A stretch of DNA of 64,000 nt from Halobellus sp. MBLA0158 (GTDB taxonomy: Archaea; Halobacteriota; Halobacteria; Halobacteriales; Haloferacaceae), in NCBI RefSeq assembly GCF_041477585.1, contig NZ_JBGNYA010000001.1, positions 2,604,001-2,668,000 on the forward strand, written 5' to 3'. Under the pieces are notes generated by a model that saw nothing but the letters and a program-made list of their open reading frames with translations, did not search any database and was not told where the DNA came from. Shown one piece after another: positions 23,686 through 28,306 of this stretch; position 1 is the stretch's first letter, and each line of letters begins with the position of its first letter. A program made the position numbers and the translations under genes.

Positions 23686-24621
23686 ATGCTCGACGAGTTG
23701 CTCGGCAGGGCGGAGCTCAAAGCCCGGATCGAGGAACTGGAGGAGGAAAAGCGCCACCTCGAACGCCGCGCCGAGGCCGAAGAGGAGCGCCGCTCGGAGG
23801 CCGTCCGCAAGCGCCAGGAGGCCGAGACCGAGATCAACCGCCTCGAAGACCGGATCGAGGGCCTCGAAGAGCGCGTCGAACGGCTCTCCGGCGAGGACTC
23901 GGACGTGTCGTTCCGCGGGACCGCCGACCTCCGGGGCGCGCGACGGGACGAGATCATCTCGCGGCTGGACTCGTTCGCGACCGACGCCGAGGGCGCGCTC
24001 ACGGCGATGGTCCGCGAGTCGGTCCCCGACCCCGTCTCGGAGGCGCTCGGCGAGCGCGCGGCGCTCGTCCGCCGGGCCGCGCCCTGTCTGGTCTGCGTCG
24101 ACGACGCGGGCCTCGTCGCCGCCGCGCTCGATCCGCCGACGGCGCCCGCGGCCTTCGCCGAGTGGGGCGAGGGGTTCCGCCTCGACCGCGCGTGGTTCGT
24201 CCCTGAGAATCCGGTGTGGGTCGCGCTCGTCCGCTCGGACCTGTTCGCGCTCGGCGTCTACGACGGCGCGGACGTCACCCTCGTCGACGACGTCGAGTCC
24301 GACGTGATGGGGACGCACTCGAAGGGCGGCTTCTCGCAGGCGCGGTTCGAGCGGCGCCGCGACCAGCAGGTCGACGACCACCTCGACCGGGCCCGCGAGG
24401 TGCTCGAAGCGCATCTCGGCGGCGCGGACGGGGCGGCGGAGGACGCGAGCGCGCTGCCGTCCGCGGACGCCGACGTGGTCGTCCTCGGCGAGGAGACCGT
24501 TCTCGGGCGGTTCACCGACCTCACGGACCGGACCGCCGCCGTCGACGCGACGGGCGAGCCGGGACCGGCGCTCGGAGACGCGGTCCGGGAGTTCTGGACG
24601 ACGCGGCTGTGGCTCCTCTGA
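23686..24621 (+). CDS. Vms1/ANKZF1-like peptidyl-tRNA hydrolase
   Basis: 311 residues. The first 70 form a charged coiled coil (MLDELLGRAELKARIEELEE onwards). The middle contains an eRF1-middle-domain-like fold with GTHSKGGFSQARFERRRDQQ at residues 209-228, where Q218 sits in a GGFSQ loop resembling the catalytic loop of Vms1/ANKZF1 (VLRF1 group of the aeRF1 superfamily). In eukaryotes these enzymes release stalled nascent chains from peptidyl-tRNA on 60S subunits. The eukaryotic C-terminal domains (ankyrin, VIM) are absent. A rescue role on stalled ribosomes is inferred. It is leaderless and stands alone. Confidence 0.75.
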   Translation: MLDELLGRAELKARIEELEEEKRHLERRAEAEEERRSEAVRKRQEAETEINRLEDRIEGLEERVERLSGEDSDVSFRGTADLRGARRDEIISRLDSFATDAEGALTAMVRESVPDPVSEALGERAALVRRAAPCLVCVDDAGLVAAALDPPTAPAAFAEWGEGFRLDRAWFVPENPVWVALVRSDLFALGVYDGADVTLVDDVESDVMGTHSKGGFSQARFERRRDQQVDDHLDRAREVLEAHLGGADGAAEDASALPSADADVVVLGEETVLGRFTDLTDRTAAVDATGEPGPALGDAVREFWTTRLWLL

Positions 24622-24699: not shown

Positions 24700-25743
24700 A
24701 TGACAGGAAACGCCGACGACGCCGAGCGGGTGGTCGTCCTCGCCCACGAGAAGTTCCCCGAGCGCGCGAAGACGGCCACGGGCGTCCTGAAGTACGCCGA
24801 CTACGACGTGGTCGCCGTCCTCGACCGCGACCGCGCCGGGACGACGGCGGCGGACCACCGCGCGGACCTGCCCGAGGTCCCGATCGTCGAGTCGATGGCC
24901 GACGCGCCCGACGCCGACACGCTGCTCGTCGGCATCGCGCCGATCGGCGGCGGCTTCGACGACTCCTGGCGCCCGGACGTCCGCACGGCGATCGAGCGGG
25001 GCTGCGACGTCGTCGCCGGCCTCCACTACTTCCTCGCCGACGACGAGGAGTTCGCGGCGCTGGCCGACGAGCACGGCGTCGACCTCCGCGACGTCCGGAA
25101 GCCGCCCGAGGACCTGACGGTCGCCTCCGGGAAGAGCGCCGACGTCGACGCCGAGGTCGTCCTGACGGTCGGCACCGACTGCTCGGTCGGGAAGATGACG
25201 GTCGCGCTGGAACTGATGGAGGCCGCCCGCGAGCGCGGCGTCGACGCCGGCTTCATCCCGACGGGGCAGACGGGAATTATGATCGCGGGCTGGGGGAACC
25301 CGATCGACCGCGTGATCTCGGATTTCACCGCGGGCGCCGTCGAGGAGATGCTCCTCGAGGTCGGCGACGACTACGACGTCCTCTTCGTCGAGGGCCAGGG
25401 CAGCATCGTCCACCCGGCGTACTCGGCGGTCACCTGCGGCATCCTCCACGGCGCGATGCCCGACTCGATGGTGCTCTGTCACGCCGCGGGCCGGGAGGCG
25501 ATCCACGGCTACGAGGACTTCGCGCTCCCGCCGATCGGGGAGTACGTCGACCTCTACGAGGGGCTCGCCGCCCCGGTCCACGAGGGCGACGTCGTCGCGG
25601 GCGCGCTGAACACCTCGGGGGTCGACGGCGACGAGGCGGCCCGCGCCGCCGTCGACGACTTCACCGACGAACTGGGCGCGCCCGCGACCGACCCCGTCCG
25701 CTTCGATGCGGACGCGGTGCTGGACGCCATCCTCGACGAATGA
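24700..25743 (+). CDS. dgcN: DUF1611 / DgcN-type protein (D-glutamate N-acetyltransferase family)
   Basis: 347 residues. The N-terminal Rossmann-like part (DDAERVVVLAHEKFPERAKT) is followed by a P-loop domain with VGTDCSVGKMTVALEL near residue 158, GFIPTGQTGIMIAGWG near 183 and LFVEGQGSIVHPAYSAVTCG near 228. This is the DUF1611 family; a marine bacterial member, DgcN, N-acetylates D-glutamate ahead of the racemase-like DgcA. Its stop overlaps the start of an enolase-superfamily epimerase by four bases (ATGA at 25740), the same pairing as dgcN-dgcA. The substrate here is inferred from that pairing. Confidence 0.75.
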   Translation: MTGNADDAERVVVLAHEKFPERAKTATGVLKYADYDVVAVLDRDRAGTTAADHRADLPEVPIVESMADAPDADTLLVGIAPIGGGFDDSWRPDVRTAIERGCDVVAGLHYFLADDEEFAALADEHGVDLRDVRKPPEDLTVASGKSADVDAEVVLTVGTDCSVGKMTVALELMEAARERGVDAGFIPTGQTGIMIAGWGNPIDRVISDFTAGAVEEMLLEVGDDYDVLFVEGQGSIVHPAYSAVTCGILHGAMPDSMVLCHAAGREAIHGYEDFALPPIGEYVDLYEGLAAPVHEGDVVAGALNTSGVDGDEAARAAVDDFTDELGAPATDPVRFDADAVLDAILDE

Positions 25744-26792
25744 CGACGCTCACGACCGAGTTCGAGCGGCTCTCGCTCCCGCTCGCCGACGCCTTCACGA
25801 TCTCGCGCGGCACGCAGACAGACGCCGAGAACGTCGTCGTGCGGATCCGCGACGGGGAGGGACACGAGGGCGTCGGCGCGGCCGCGCCGTCGGAGCACTA
25901 CGGCGAGACGCCGGCGACGGTCGAGGCAGTCCTGCCAGACTTTCTCGACGTCGTCGAGGACGTCGGCGACCCGCACGCGATCGACCGAATCGAACGCGAG
26001 CAGCGGGCCGTCGTCGCGGACAACCCCGCCGCGCACGCCGCGGTCGATGTCGCGCTCCACGACCTCGCCGCCAAGCGCCTCGGCGTGCCGCTGTACCGTC
26101 AGTGGGGGATCGACCCGGAGCGGACGCCGAAGACGTCGTTCACGATCGGCCTCGACTCGACAGAGCGGATGCGCGAGAAGACGCGCGCGGCCGTCGAAGA
26201 CGGCTACGACGTCCTGAAGGTGAAGCTCGGGACCGACAGAGATCGGGAAATCGTCGCCGCCGTCCGGGAGGAGGCGCCCGAGGCGCGCATCCGAGTCGAC
26301 GCCAACGAGGCCTGGACGCCGCGGGAGGCGCTACGGACGATCGAGGACCTGGAACCTCACGGCGTCGAGTTCGTCGAACAGCCGGTGTCGGCGGACGACC
26401 CCGAGGGCCTGCGGTTCGTCTACGAGCGCTCGCCGCTGCCGATCGCCGCCGACGAGTCCTGCGTGCGGCTCCCGGACGTCCCCGCGGTCGCCGACCGCAC
26501 CGACATCGTGAACCTCAAGCTGATGAAGTGCGGCAGTCTCGCGGAAGCCCGCCGGATGGTCGACGCCGCGCGGGCGCACGGACTGGAAGTGATGCTCGGC
26601 TGTATGATCGAGACGAACGCGGCCATCGCCGCGGCCTGCAACCTCGCGCCGCTCGTCGACTACGCCGACCTCGATGGCGCGCTCCTGCTCGCTGACGACG
26701 AGTACGCCGGCGTGCCGACCGAGGGGAGCGAGATCCGGCTGAGCGCTCTCGCCGACCGCGGGCTCGCGGGGACGGGCGCGCGGCCGCAGTAG
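25740..26792 (+). CDS. dgcA: Enolase-superfamily epimerase (dipeptide epimerase / DgcA type)
   Basis: 350 residues of the muconate-lactonising subgroup. Acid-base Lys pair: VLKVKLG near residue 160 and NLKLMKCGS near 260. Metal ligands lie in RVDANEAW, EFVEQPV and AADESC. This set fits 1,1-proton transfer as in L-Ala-D/L-Glu epimerases and the N-acetyl-D-glutamate racemase DgcA. It is coupled by a four-base overlap to the DUF1611 gene. Whether it works on dipeptides or N-acyl amino acids cannot be settled by sequence alone. Confidence 0.85.
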   Translation: MTTLTTEFERLSLPLADAFTISRGTQTDAENVVVRIRDGEGHEGVGAAAPSEHYGETPATVEAVLPDFLDVVEDVGDPHAIDRIEREQRAVVADNPAAHAAVDVALHDLAAKRLGVPLYRQWGIDPERTPKTSFTIGLDSTERMREKTRAAVEDGYDVLKVKLGTDRDREIVAAVREEAPEARIRVDANEAWTPREALRTIEDLEPHGVEFVEQPVSADDPEGLRFVYERSPLPIAADESCVRLPDVPAVADRTDIVNLKLMKCGSLAEARRMVDAARAHGLEVMLGCMIETNAAIAAACNLAPLVDYADLDGALLLADDEYAGVPTEGSEIRLSALADRGLAGTGARPQ

Positions 26793-26841
26793 GGGGCGGT
26801 CGACGCCGCGTAGGTTCTTATACCGATTCGAAGCCAGGAGG

Positions 26842-26859
26842 CGTGTGTACTGACACACG
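26842..26859 (+). promoter_or_regulatory. Promoter-like box and hairpin downstream of the dgcNA pair
   Basis: CGTGTGT-ACTG-ACACACG is a perfect 7-bp stem with a 4-base loop. It lies about 25 bases after a TTCTTATACC promoter-like box (26815-26824), so a transcript could start on the hairpin. It could instead be the end structure of the dgcNA transcript; no T-run follows. Confidence 0.35.
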
Positions 26860-27004
26860 TCCCGCGTCGGGCCGCGGTCGCTCGGCACGTCGACGCGGGG
26901 GCGGTTCGGAACGGCGTGCCGACTGTTCGCCACAGCGCAGCAGGTGCGCGAGCGCGGACGCACACGCTTAACCGCGCGCGCCGAGTAGTCACGGCCAGAT
27001 CCAG

Positions 27005-27454
27005 ATGTCCCAGGTCACGCTCATCGGCGATCGCCTCGCGTCTCCGGGGACGGAGTTCGTCTACGAGGGCGAGTCGGCGGCCTGCGAGGGCTGTCCGTAC
27101 CGGAAGCAGTGTCTCAACCTCACCGAGGGCGTCCGCTACGAGGTGACGGACATTCGAGAGAGCGGGCAGCTACTGGACTGTGCGGTCCACGACACCGGCG
27201 TCCGCGCCGTCGAGGTCGAGCCCGCCTCGATCATCGCCAACGTGGCCTCGAAGGGCGCCTACGCCGGCAGCAAGGTGTCCCTGCCCGGTCCCTGTCCGCA
27301 CACCGAGTGCCCGAGCCACGAGTACTGCGTTCCGGAGGGCGCGGACTTCGAGTCGGAGTACCGGATCGACGAGGTGCGCGGCGAGCCGCCGCACGAGTTC
27401 TGCTACCTGGATCGCGACCTAGAGCTCGTCGAACTGGCGCCGCCGGAGTCGTAG
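27005..27454 (+). CDS. UPF0179-family cysteine-rich protein
   Basis: 149 residues matching UPF0179, an archaeal family with no proven function. Cys clusters CEGCPYRKQC (residues 24-33) and CPHTECPSHEYC (98-109), plus single Cys at about 58 and 138, suggest zinc or an iron-sulfur cluster. MSQVTLIGDRLASPGTEFVY is the usual start. A CGCTTAACCG element about 37 bases upstream may be its TATA box. It lies between the dgcNA pair and the convergent deacylase. Confidence 0.88.
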   Translation: MSQVTLIGDRLASPGTEFVYEGESAACEGCPYRKQCLNLTEGVRYEVTDIRESGQLLDCAVHDTGVRAVEVEPASIIANVASKGAYAGSKVSLPGPCPHTECPSHEYCVPEGADFESEYRIDEVRGEPPHEFCYLDRDLELVELAPPES

Positions 27455-27487
27455 TCGCGGTTTCGCCCGACTCCGACAGCCCGAGAC

Positions 27488-28306
27488 CTACGCGAGCGTC
27501 CCGATCCGGTCGGCCGCGTAGCCGAAGACGTCCTCGTAGCCGTGGGCCGAGAGCAACACGGGATAGAACTCGTTTTCGGCGTTGTACGCCTCGCCGTCCG
27601 CCGCGGCGACGGGATCGCCGGGCGCGACGCGCTGGAAGTTGTCGACGAAGACGCGGTAGTCCTCGGCGGGATCTTTGGGGATCTGATCGAGGAGTCGGAA
27701 GACCGTGACCTCGGTCTCGTCGCGGCGGTGCAGCGACAGCGGCGGCTCGACGTCGCCCTCGATCGGCGCCGGAAGGACCCCCGTCGCAGCGAGGAACGCG
27801 CGGACGATCCAGTAGGCGTTCGTCGCGGCCTCGTCGCTCCGCTGGAGGCCGCACTCGACTTCGATGGTGTGGGCGTGGTCGATGAGCCGTCCGACCGCGA
27901 ACTGGCCCGTCTCGACGACGTACTCCATCGGGAGGTGCGGGCAGATCGCGCGCGTGACGGCGTCGATCCCGTCGACGAGCGCGAAGGGCTCGGCGTAGGA
28001 CTGGGTGGAGTGCAACGAGAGCACGGTCTTGCCGCGGAGCTCGCGGACCAAGTCGTGTGCCAGTCGCCCCTCGTGCGTGTCGGCGTTCGGGTCGCCGGGG
28101 AACGCGCGGTTGAGGTCCTCGTCGAGGTAGCGGACGCCGGCGTCGAGCGCCTCCTCGTTGGCGACGACGAGCTTGACCGGCCGCTCGACGTCGGGGTCGT
28201 CGGCGAGGAACCGCTCGATCGCGCGCGGGCCGCAGGGCTCGTCCCCGTGGACCGCGCCGACGACGGCGACCTCGGGCGTCCCCTCCCCGAGTTCGTATAT
28301 TCGCAT
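27488..28306 (-). CDS. Succinylglutamate desuccinylase/aspartoacylase-family deacylase
   Basis: 272-residue M14-type zinc amidohydrolase. [20 protein letters not shown] near residues 14-33 carries the HxxE zinc pair and [13 protein letters not shown] near residue 95 the third ligand; [20 protein letters not shown] and [17 protein letters not shown] are further family signatures. Relatives remove acyl groups from N-acyl aspartate or glutamate. It lies about 1.5 kb from the DgcA-like epimerase, on the opposite strand, which makes an N-acetyl-L-glutamate deacylase role possible but unproven. Confidence 0.85.

Follow-up and report, generated by a model that had tools for sequence, protein, structure and literature searches.

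In Pseudoalteromonas sp. CF6-2, the DgcR-DgcN-DgcA locus (L274, plasmid NZ_CP091443.1) contains a DUF1611 gene followed by an overlapping gene for a racemase of the MR/MLE family. The same arrangement is found in the stretch of DNA analysed here, a 64,000-nucleotide window from Halobellus sp. MBLA0158 (hereafter the window), in which a DUF1611 gene overlaps the gene for an MR/MLE epimerase. The two window proteins have the same domains and catalytic residues as DgcN and DgcA of CF6-2, and bacterial relatives are about 34-43% (DUF1611 protein) and 33-36% (epimerase) identical to them. Unlike in CF6-2, no LysR regulator was found among the window neighbours scanned, and the archaeal proteins branch outside the clades of their bacterial counterparts and fall short of the NCBIfam cut-offs. 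The chemistry of the route proposed here is that of the established DgcN/DgcA pathway, together with what is known of the enolase superfamily. That is, the DUF1611 enzyme would N-acetylate D-glutamate (D-Glu) using acetyl-CoA, the Mg-dependent two-lysine epimerase would interconvert N-acetyl-D-Glu and N-acetyl-L-Glu through an enediolate, and L-Glu would be released by a general deacylase of N-acyl amino acids, of which there are several, all unlinked to the pair. We consider it probable that the pair is a two-gene operon for D-Glu salvage, of the DgcN-DgcA type. The features of the pair are the following:

24700-25743, + strand: DUF1611 gene of the haloarchaeal DgcN-like lineage, for a putative D-Glu N-acetyltransferase (347 amino acids; intact open reading frame, Pfam)
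25171-25200, + strand: P-loop GTDCSVGKMT, residues 158-167 of the DUF1611 protein (read from the sequence)
25740-25743, + strand: ATGA, stop/start overlap from the DUF1611 gene to the epimerase gene (read from the sequence)
25740-26792, + strand: MR/MLE epimerase gene of the haloarchaeal DgcA-like lineage, for a putative N-acetyl-D-Glu racemase (350 amino acids; intact open reading frame, Pfam)

The ATGA overlap suggests that translation of the two genes is likely coupled. The open reading frames and Pfam matches (DUF1611, 255 bits, and DUF1611_N, 105 bits, in the first protein; MR_MLE_C, 141 bits, and MR_MLE_N, 45 bits, in the second) agree with the initial annotation, which had described a DUF1611 gene with this P-loop overlapping an epimerase gene by four bases, and the two acid-base lysines that it had assigned to the epimerase are found in the alignment as K162 and K260.

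A comparison across haloarchaea, which had been put forward as a check, revealed a nearly universal pair. Among 252 Halobacteria genomes, drawn evenly and all at least 90% complete, 232 encode the DUF1611 protein and 230 the epimerase. Both genes are missing together in 20 genomes, Halapricum desulfuricans (G261) being one of these, and two genomes (G159 and G249) have the DUF1611 protein without the epimerase; G266 and G285 were taken to be epimerase-less, as they have no DUF1611 protein and were absent from the epimerase matches. In a family sample of 148 genomes, the DUF1611 protein was detected in 135 and the epimerase in 138, with two of the 138 epimerase matches (G059 and G072) being weak, near E 1e-21. 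The pair genes are adjacent and on one strand in all 60 core loci, which represent 60 of the 135 DUF1611-bearing family genomes, chosen at one to few per genus (in one, L072, the epimerase match is partial only). Gene calling in these neighbourhoods relied on a heuristic favouring acidic open reading frames, and the epimerases that it mislabelled as antisense were corrected by tblastn. Such conserved adjacency indicates that the arrangement is not due to chance. The 124 genomes surveyed from elsewhere in the phylum showed no clear DUF1611 protein; in 17 of them the matches were weak and partial, with one lying at the cut-off. Of the 24 Halobacteria in the same survey, 20 had a clear match. With its genes, families, catalytic residues, operon and co-occurrence established, the window pair is the one usual in haloarchaea, and its most likely role is D-Glu salvage, a reading for which its presence in 230 genomes and joint loss in 20 both argue. 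If this is true, almost every haloarchaeon can use the D-Glu of bacterial walls, with a bearing on carbon and nitrogen turnover in brines.

One genome (G116) has two core DUF1611 copies, and the epimerase beside one of them is broken into pieces (L046:1781-3854). In addition, the pair of the Halobellus genomes G005 and G131 is a divergent variant, with identities of about 55% and 45-49%, and gives the impression of having been replaced; these Halobellus variants lie at L047:3642-5698 and L048:3138-5258.

For the DUF1611 protein, DgcN (NF041892) is the best-scoring NCBIfam model (263.9 bits), and the domain content of DgcN, that is DUF1611_N and DUF1611 with a P-loop, is present. Residues G158, D160, G164 and K165 of the P-loop are kept in all 241 aligned DUF1611 rows. 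The structure model (predicted local distance difference test score, 92.8) matches the solved DgcN 7xrj, entitled 'N-acetyltransferase DgcN-25328', with Z 36.7 and a root-mean-square deviation of 3.2 over 326 residues, as well as Thermotoga 2g0t (Z 38.2); the closest solved relative is 2obn, the DUF1611 protein Ava_3511 of Anabaena variabilis (231 bits, Z 44.8 over 337 residues). The C-terminal half of the model resembles P-loop proteins of the SIMIBI type (BioD, MinD; Z about 13). No fold of GCN5-related N-acetyltransferases was seen among the listed structural matches, an absence that excludes nothing. We speak of a putative acetyl-CoA:D-Glu N-acetyltransferase, for which both acetyl transfer and D-Glu as substrate are predictions.

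Similarly, DgcA (NF042940) is the best-scoring NCBIfam model for the epimerase (264.8 bits), which falls below the cut-offs of both L-Ala-D/L-Glu epimerase models (NF011708, 197.3 of 343 bits; NF041118, 166.3 of 500 bits). The KxK lysines K160 and K162, the second base K260 and the metal ligands D187, E213 and D238 are conserved in 130 of 130 haloarchaeal core rows. The protein has the two lysines and three acidic MLE-subgroup ligands of DgcA, and its gene has an adjacent DUF1611 partner. Furthermore, R23 is found in all 127 non-gap core rows and in 72 of 73 bacterial DgcA rows, whereas all 19 accessory dipeptide epimerases, which are described below, have Leu at this position. Arguments for D-Glu salvage are thus the match of the DUF1611 model to 7xrj, the complete set of catalytic residues in the epimerase, an R23 as in bacterial DgcA, and the ranking of DgcN and DgcA as best NCBIfam models, to which a published title naming halophilic archaea can be added. 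That title (Yu et al. 2023, as it appears in the reference list of PMC12363236) refers to a D-Glu route via DgcN/DgcA in halophilic archaea; going by it, a route of this kind in these organisms has already been reported. Literature searches on D-Glu in haloarchaea, or on NlpC plus epimerase in archaea, gave nothing on these subjects in haloarchaea, as judged from titles and abstract openings.

Several results weigh against D-Glu salvage by the pair. Both proteins score well under the curated cut-offs, which are 480 bits for DgcN and 400 bits for DgcA, whereas bacterial DgcN (L214, 501 bits; L190, 535 bits) and DgcA (Vibrio L053, 421 bits) pass them; four other haloarchaeal core DUF1611 proteins reach 241-272 bits on the DgcN model, and the epimerase variants of G005 and G131 score 217 and 255 bits on the DgcA model. 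In a DUF1611 tree of 81 chosen rows (a quick search, with some long branches), bacterial DgcN, including CF6-2 and 7xrj, form one clade (Shimodaira-Hasegawa-like approximate likelihood ratio support 100, stem 1.76) and the haloarchaeal core proteins another (98). Most of the residues that the haloarchaeal DUF1611 protein shares with bacterial DgcN occur in DUF1611 proteins in general. In an epimerase tree of 75 chosen rows, obtained by the same kind of search and also with some long branches, the haloarchaeal proteins are separated from the bacterial DgcA clade by a branch with a support of 100 and a length of 1.46, and the core epimerases are placed on the dipeptide-epimerase side, together with the accessory epimerases, 3iji and 3jva. 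As a single clade they are unsupported, since the variants of G128 and G131 come off separately. The bacterial DgcA clade also includes E. coli YcjG and 4gfi, and the position of YcjG among bacterial DgcAs implies that kinship does not fix the substrate. Given the scores under the cut-offs and the position outside the bacterial clades, we can only infer activity on D-Glu, and the label DgcN-DgcA should be understood as standing for an architecture and a likely chemistry, without implying that the proteins are members of these families. Of the DgcN-DgcA assignment made in the initial annotation, what holds is that the pair reads as the haloarchaeal counterpart; the proteins do not fall within the curated families and bacterial clades. 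The names DgcN and DgcA, when given to the archaeal proteins, are annotation ahead of evidence.

Possible, though doubtful, is that the haloarchaeal pair represents a sister system, with an epimerase for dipeptides or N-acyl amino acids and a DUF1611 protein that acetylates or activates a substrate other than free D-Glu. L-Ala-D/L-Glu epimerases such as 3iji (Bacteroides), 3jva (Enterococcus) and 1jpd (YcjG, E. coli) have the fold family, lysines, metal ligands and DxD motif in common with the window epimerase, which, as mentioned, is separated from bacterial DgcA by a fully supported branch and stands with the dipeptide epimerases. Among solved structures, 3iji from Bacteroides is its best match (233 bits, versus 152 for 4gfi), and the core epimerases have KLMK and E291 where most bacterial DgcA have KLDK and Gly. 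Moreover, near-universality would be unusual for a dispensable catabolic trait. On the other hand, the DgcA model outscores the Ala-Glu epimerase models (265 versus 197 and 166 bits), R23 is as in bacterial DgcA and, unlike Ala-Glu epimerases, the window enzyme stays under both cut-offs and has no NlpC/P60 or peptide transporter gene among the neighbours scanned. As far as residues can tell, the evidence on the substrate of the epimerase points both ways. The DxD motif (D310, D312), which presumably binds the amino group of the dipeptide, was rejected as a substrate marker, as it occurs in core and bacterial DgcA groups alike (130 of 130 and 73 of 73 rows, respectively). The idea that the core pair is a wall-peptide operon was also discarded: no such gene was found by a Pfam scan of the window neighbours and of eight gene families that recur around the core loci, which make up part of all neighbours. 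NlpC/P60 occurs in 18 of the 252 Halobacteria genomes, all of which have the pair (p 0.37), and not in the window genome.

We regard as unlikely the related notion of a parallel DUF1611-epimerase system that would have been recruited near the root of Halobacteria, and that would act on another N-acylated D-amino acid or on a D-Glu-containing dipeptide, serving salvage or repair as a housekeeping function in cells without peptidoglycan.

The present analysis adds that some haloarchaea have a second DUF1611-epimerase gene set, which is located amid wall-peptide genes. An additional DUF1611 gene, lower in score, was found in at least 13 of the 148 family genomes, with an epimerase beside it in most fetched loci (Natrononativus amylolyticus has the accessory DUF1611 gene without an annotated epimerase). 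These accessory clusters have the two-gene architecture of the window pair and belong to the same archaeal class; they differ from it by GKR in place of GKM, by the lack of the C-H motif and by Leu in place of R23, and their DUF1611 and epimerase proteins are about 45% and 35% identical to those of the window. The accessory pair loci are the following:

L056:4914-12390, accessory pair
L057:59-8081, accessory pair
L279:5202-10156, accessory pair
L280:6306-10114, accessory pair

On a Halorussus halophilus plasmid, the accessory pair is found beside genes for DacB, an oligopeptide transporter and an NlpC/P60 protein that carries an SH3 domain of the dipeptidyl-peptidase kind; on plasmids of Haladaptatus caseinilyticus and Natrinema caseinilyticum it is found beside a D-aminoacylase, and on a Haloprofundus salinisoli plasmid beside an ATP-binding cassette (ABC) transporter set. 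The ABC genes next to accessory clusters are of the dipeptide type. By its gene content, the accessory pair, which is often plasmid-borne, looks like an archaeal wall-peptide scavenging set, distinct from the window pair. The NlpC/P60 neighbour is YkfC-like.

The genes surrounding the pair in the window are the following:

23686-24621, + strand: acVLRF1/aRF1-like gene, directly upstream of the DUF1611 gene, outside the system (Pfam)
27005-27454, + strand: UPF0179 gene, between the epimerase and deacylase genes, outside the system (Pfam)
27488-28306, - strand: AspA/AstE-family zinc deacylase gene, judged outside the system (272 amino acids; Pfam, fold)

The deacylase gene on the opposite strand had also been noted initially, and is confirmed by its open reading frame and Pfam match (AstE_AspA_cat, PF24827, 52 bits against a cut-off of 25); the UPF0179 gene that separates it from the pair, and toward which it is transcribed, had gone unmentioned. 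The enzyme was proposed to complete the route by hydrolysing N-acetyl-L-Glu in a dedicated three-gene system. It has the features of the AspA/AstE family, i.e. the Pfam domain, an HxxE...H zinc site, a DLNR motif and the fold (Z 19-23 against family structures overall; 3cdx, Z 22.8; DoeB 6twm, Z 21.8; aspartoacylase 4mri, Z 21.2), and H20, E23, H99, N66, R67 and R140 are invariant in 25 aligned sequences. Fold and residues match those of zinc deacylases that act on N-acyl amino acids, so the window enzyme, possibly a deacylase of N-acyl acidic amino acids, could hydrolyse N-acetyl-L-Glu. It scores under the NCBIfam cut-offs for aspartoacylase (48.2 of 180 bits) and succinylglutamate desuccinylase (30.1 of 170 bits).

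The presence of the deacylase does not follow that of the pair. Orthologs were found in 245 of the 252 Halobacteria genomes (E 1e-30), including 18 of the 20 pair-less ones, and were absent from 5 genomes having the DUF1611 gene (Fisher p 0.10); in the family sample, all 148 genomes have one (E 1e-5). Only in part of Halobellus does the gene adjoin the pair, namely in 8 of 17 genomes (G000, which is that of the window, G068, G079, G094, G099, G114, G118 and G122), as read by eye from gene coordinates; in the other nine it is not adjacent, three of these being without a DUF1611 gene. In the core loci, a deacylase was present within the fetched 12 kb in 5 of 60, four from Halobellus and one being a 42% relative in G026. 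No AspA/AstE-type deacylase is annotated in the dgcNA locus of CF6-2. Moreover, the window genome has 5 AstE/AspA-family hits, of which the window deacylase is the weakest, and 7 M20-family hits (one of them, at 1248-2333 of the window, resembles an M42 aminopeptidase on visual inspection). The window deacylase is thus one of about a dozen candidates in its genome, and the others could hydrolyse N-acetyl-L-Glu as well. Its role as a third, dedicated gene is very improbable and was rejected on phylogenetic profile and linkage: the window deacylase is a near-universal, unlinked household gene, and a neighbour by accident.

What is added here is that no gene dedicated to the deacylation step was found in the loci examined. 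Nothing general of this kind emerged from 85 bacterial dgcNA loci either, with nine neighbour proteins scanned against Pfam; many of the high-GC (guanine plus cytosine) loci were without a labelled dgcN, as antisense open reading frames won the gene calls. An Amidohydro_3 gene is present in 5 bacterial dgcNA loci of sphingomonads and relatives, and another lies upstream of dgcR in CF6-2.

Around the core pair, the acVLRF1/aRF1-like family is a frequent neighbour (33 of 63 loci in the neighbourhood survey). A family of 521-amino-acid proteins is encoded near the pair in 12 of the 63 loci (e.g. L077:7674-9236, - strand); it has no Pfam or NCBIfam match and by eye resembles a glutamate-cysteine ligase.

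Among bacterial loci, that of Ruegeria sp. TM1040 (L278:5809-8752) has dgcN and dgcA in line with a gene for a D-amino-acid transaminase. On plasmid pP97_c of Phaeobacter porticola (L276:5956-8207), the DUF1611 gene overlaps a gene of the pyridoxal phosphate-dependent alanine/ornithine racemase family, a different kind of racemase partner for DUF1611. DUF1611 matches also occur in 20 Klebsiella plasmid records; on one Klebsiella pneumoniae plasmid (L052:3833-8831), dgcN-dgcA is accompanied by a glutathione-type ABC transporter and lies near a silver/copper efflux gene.

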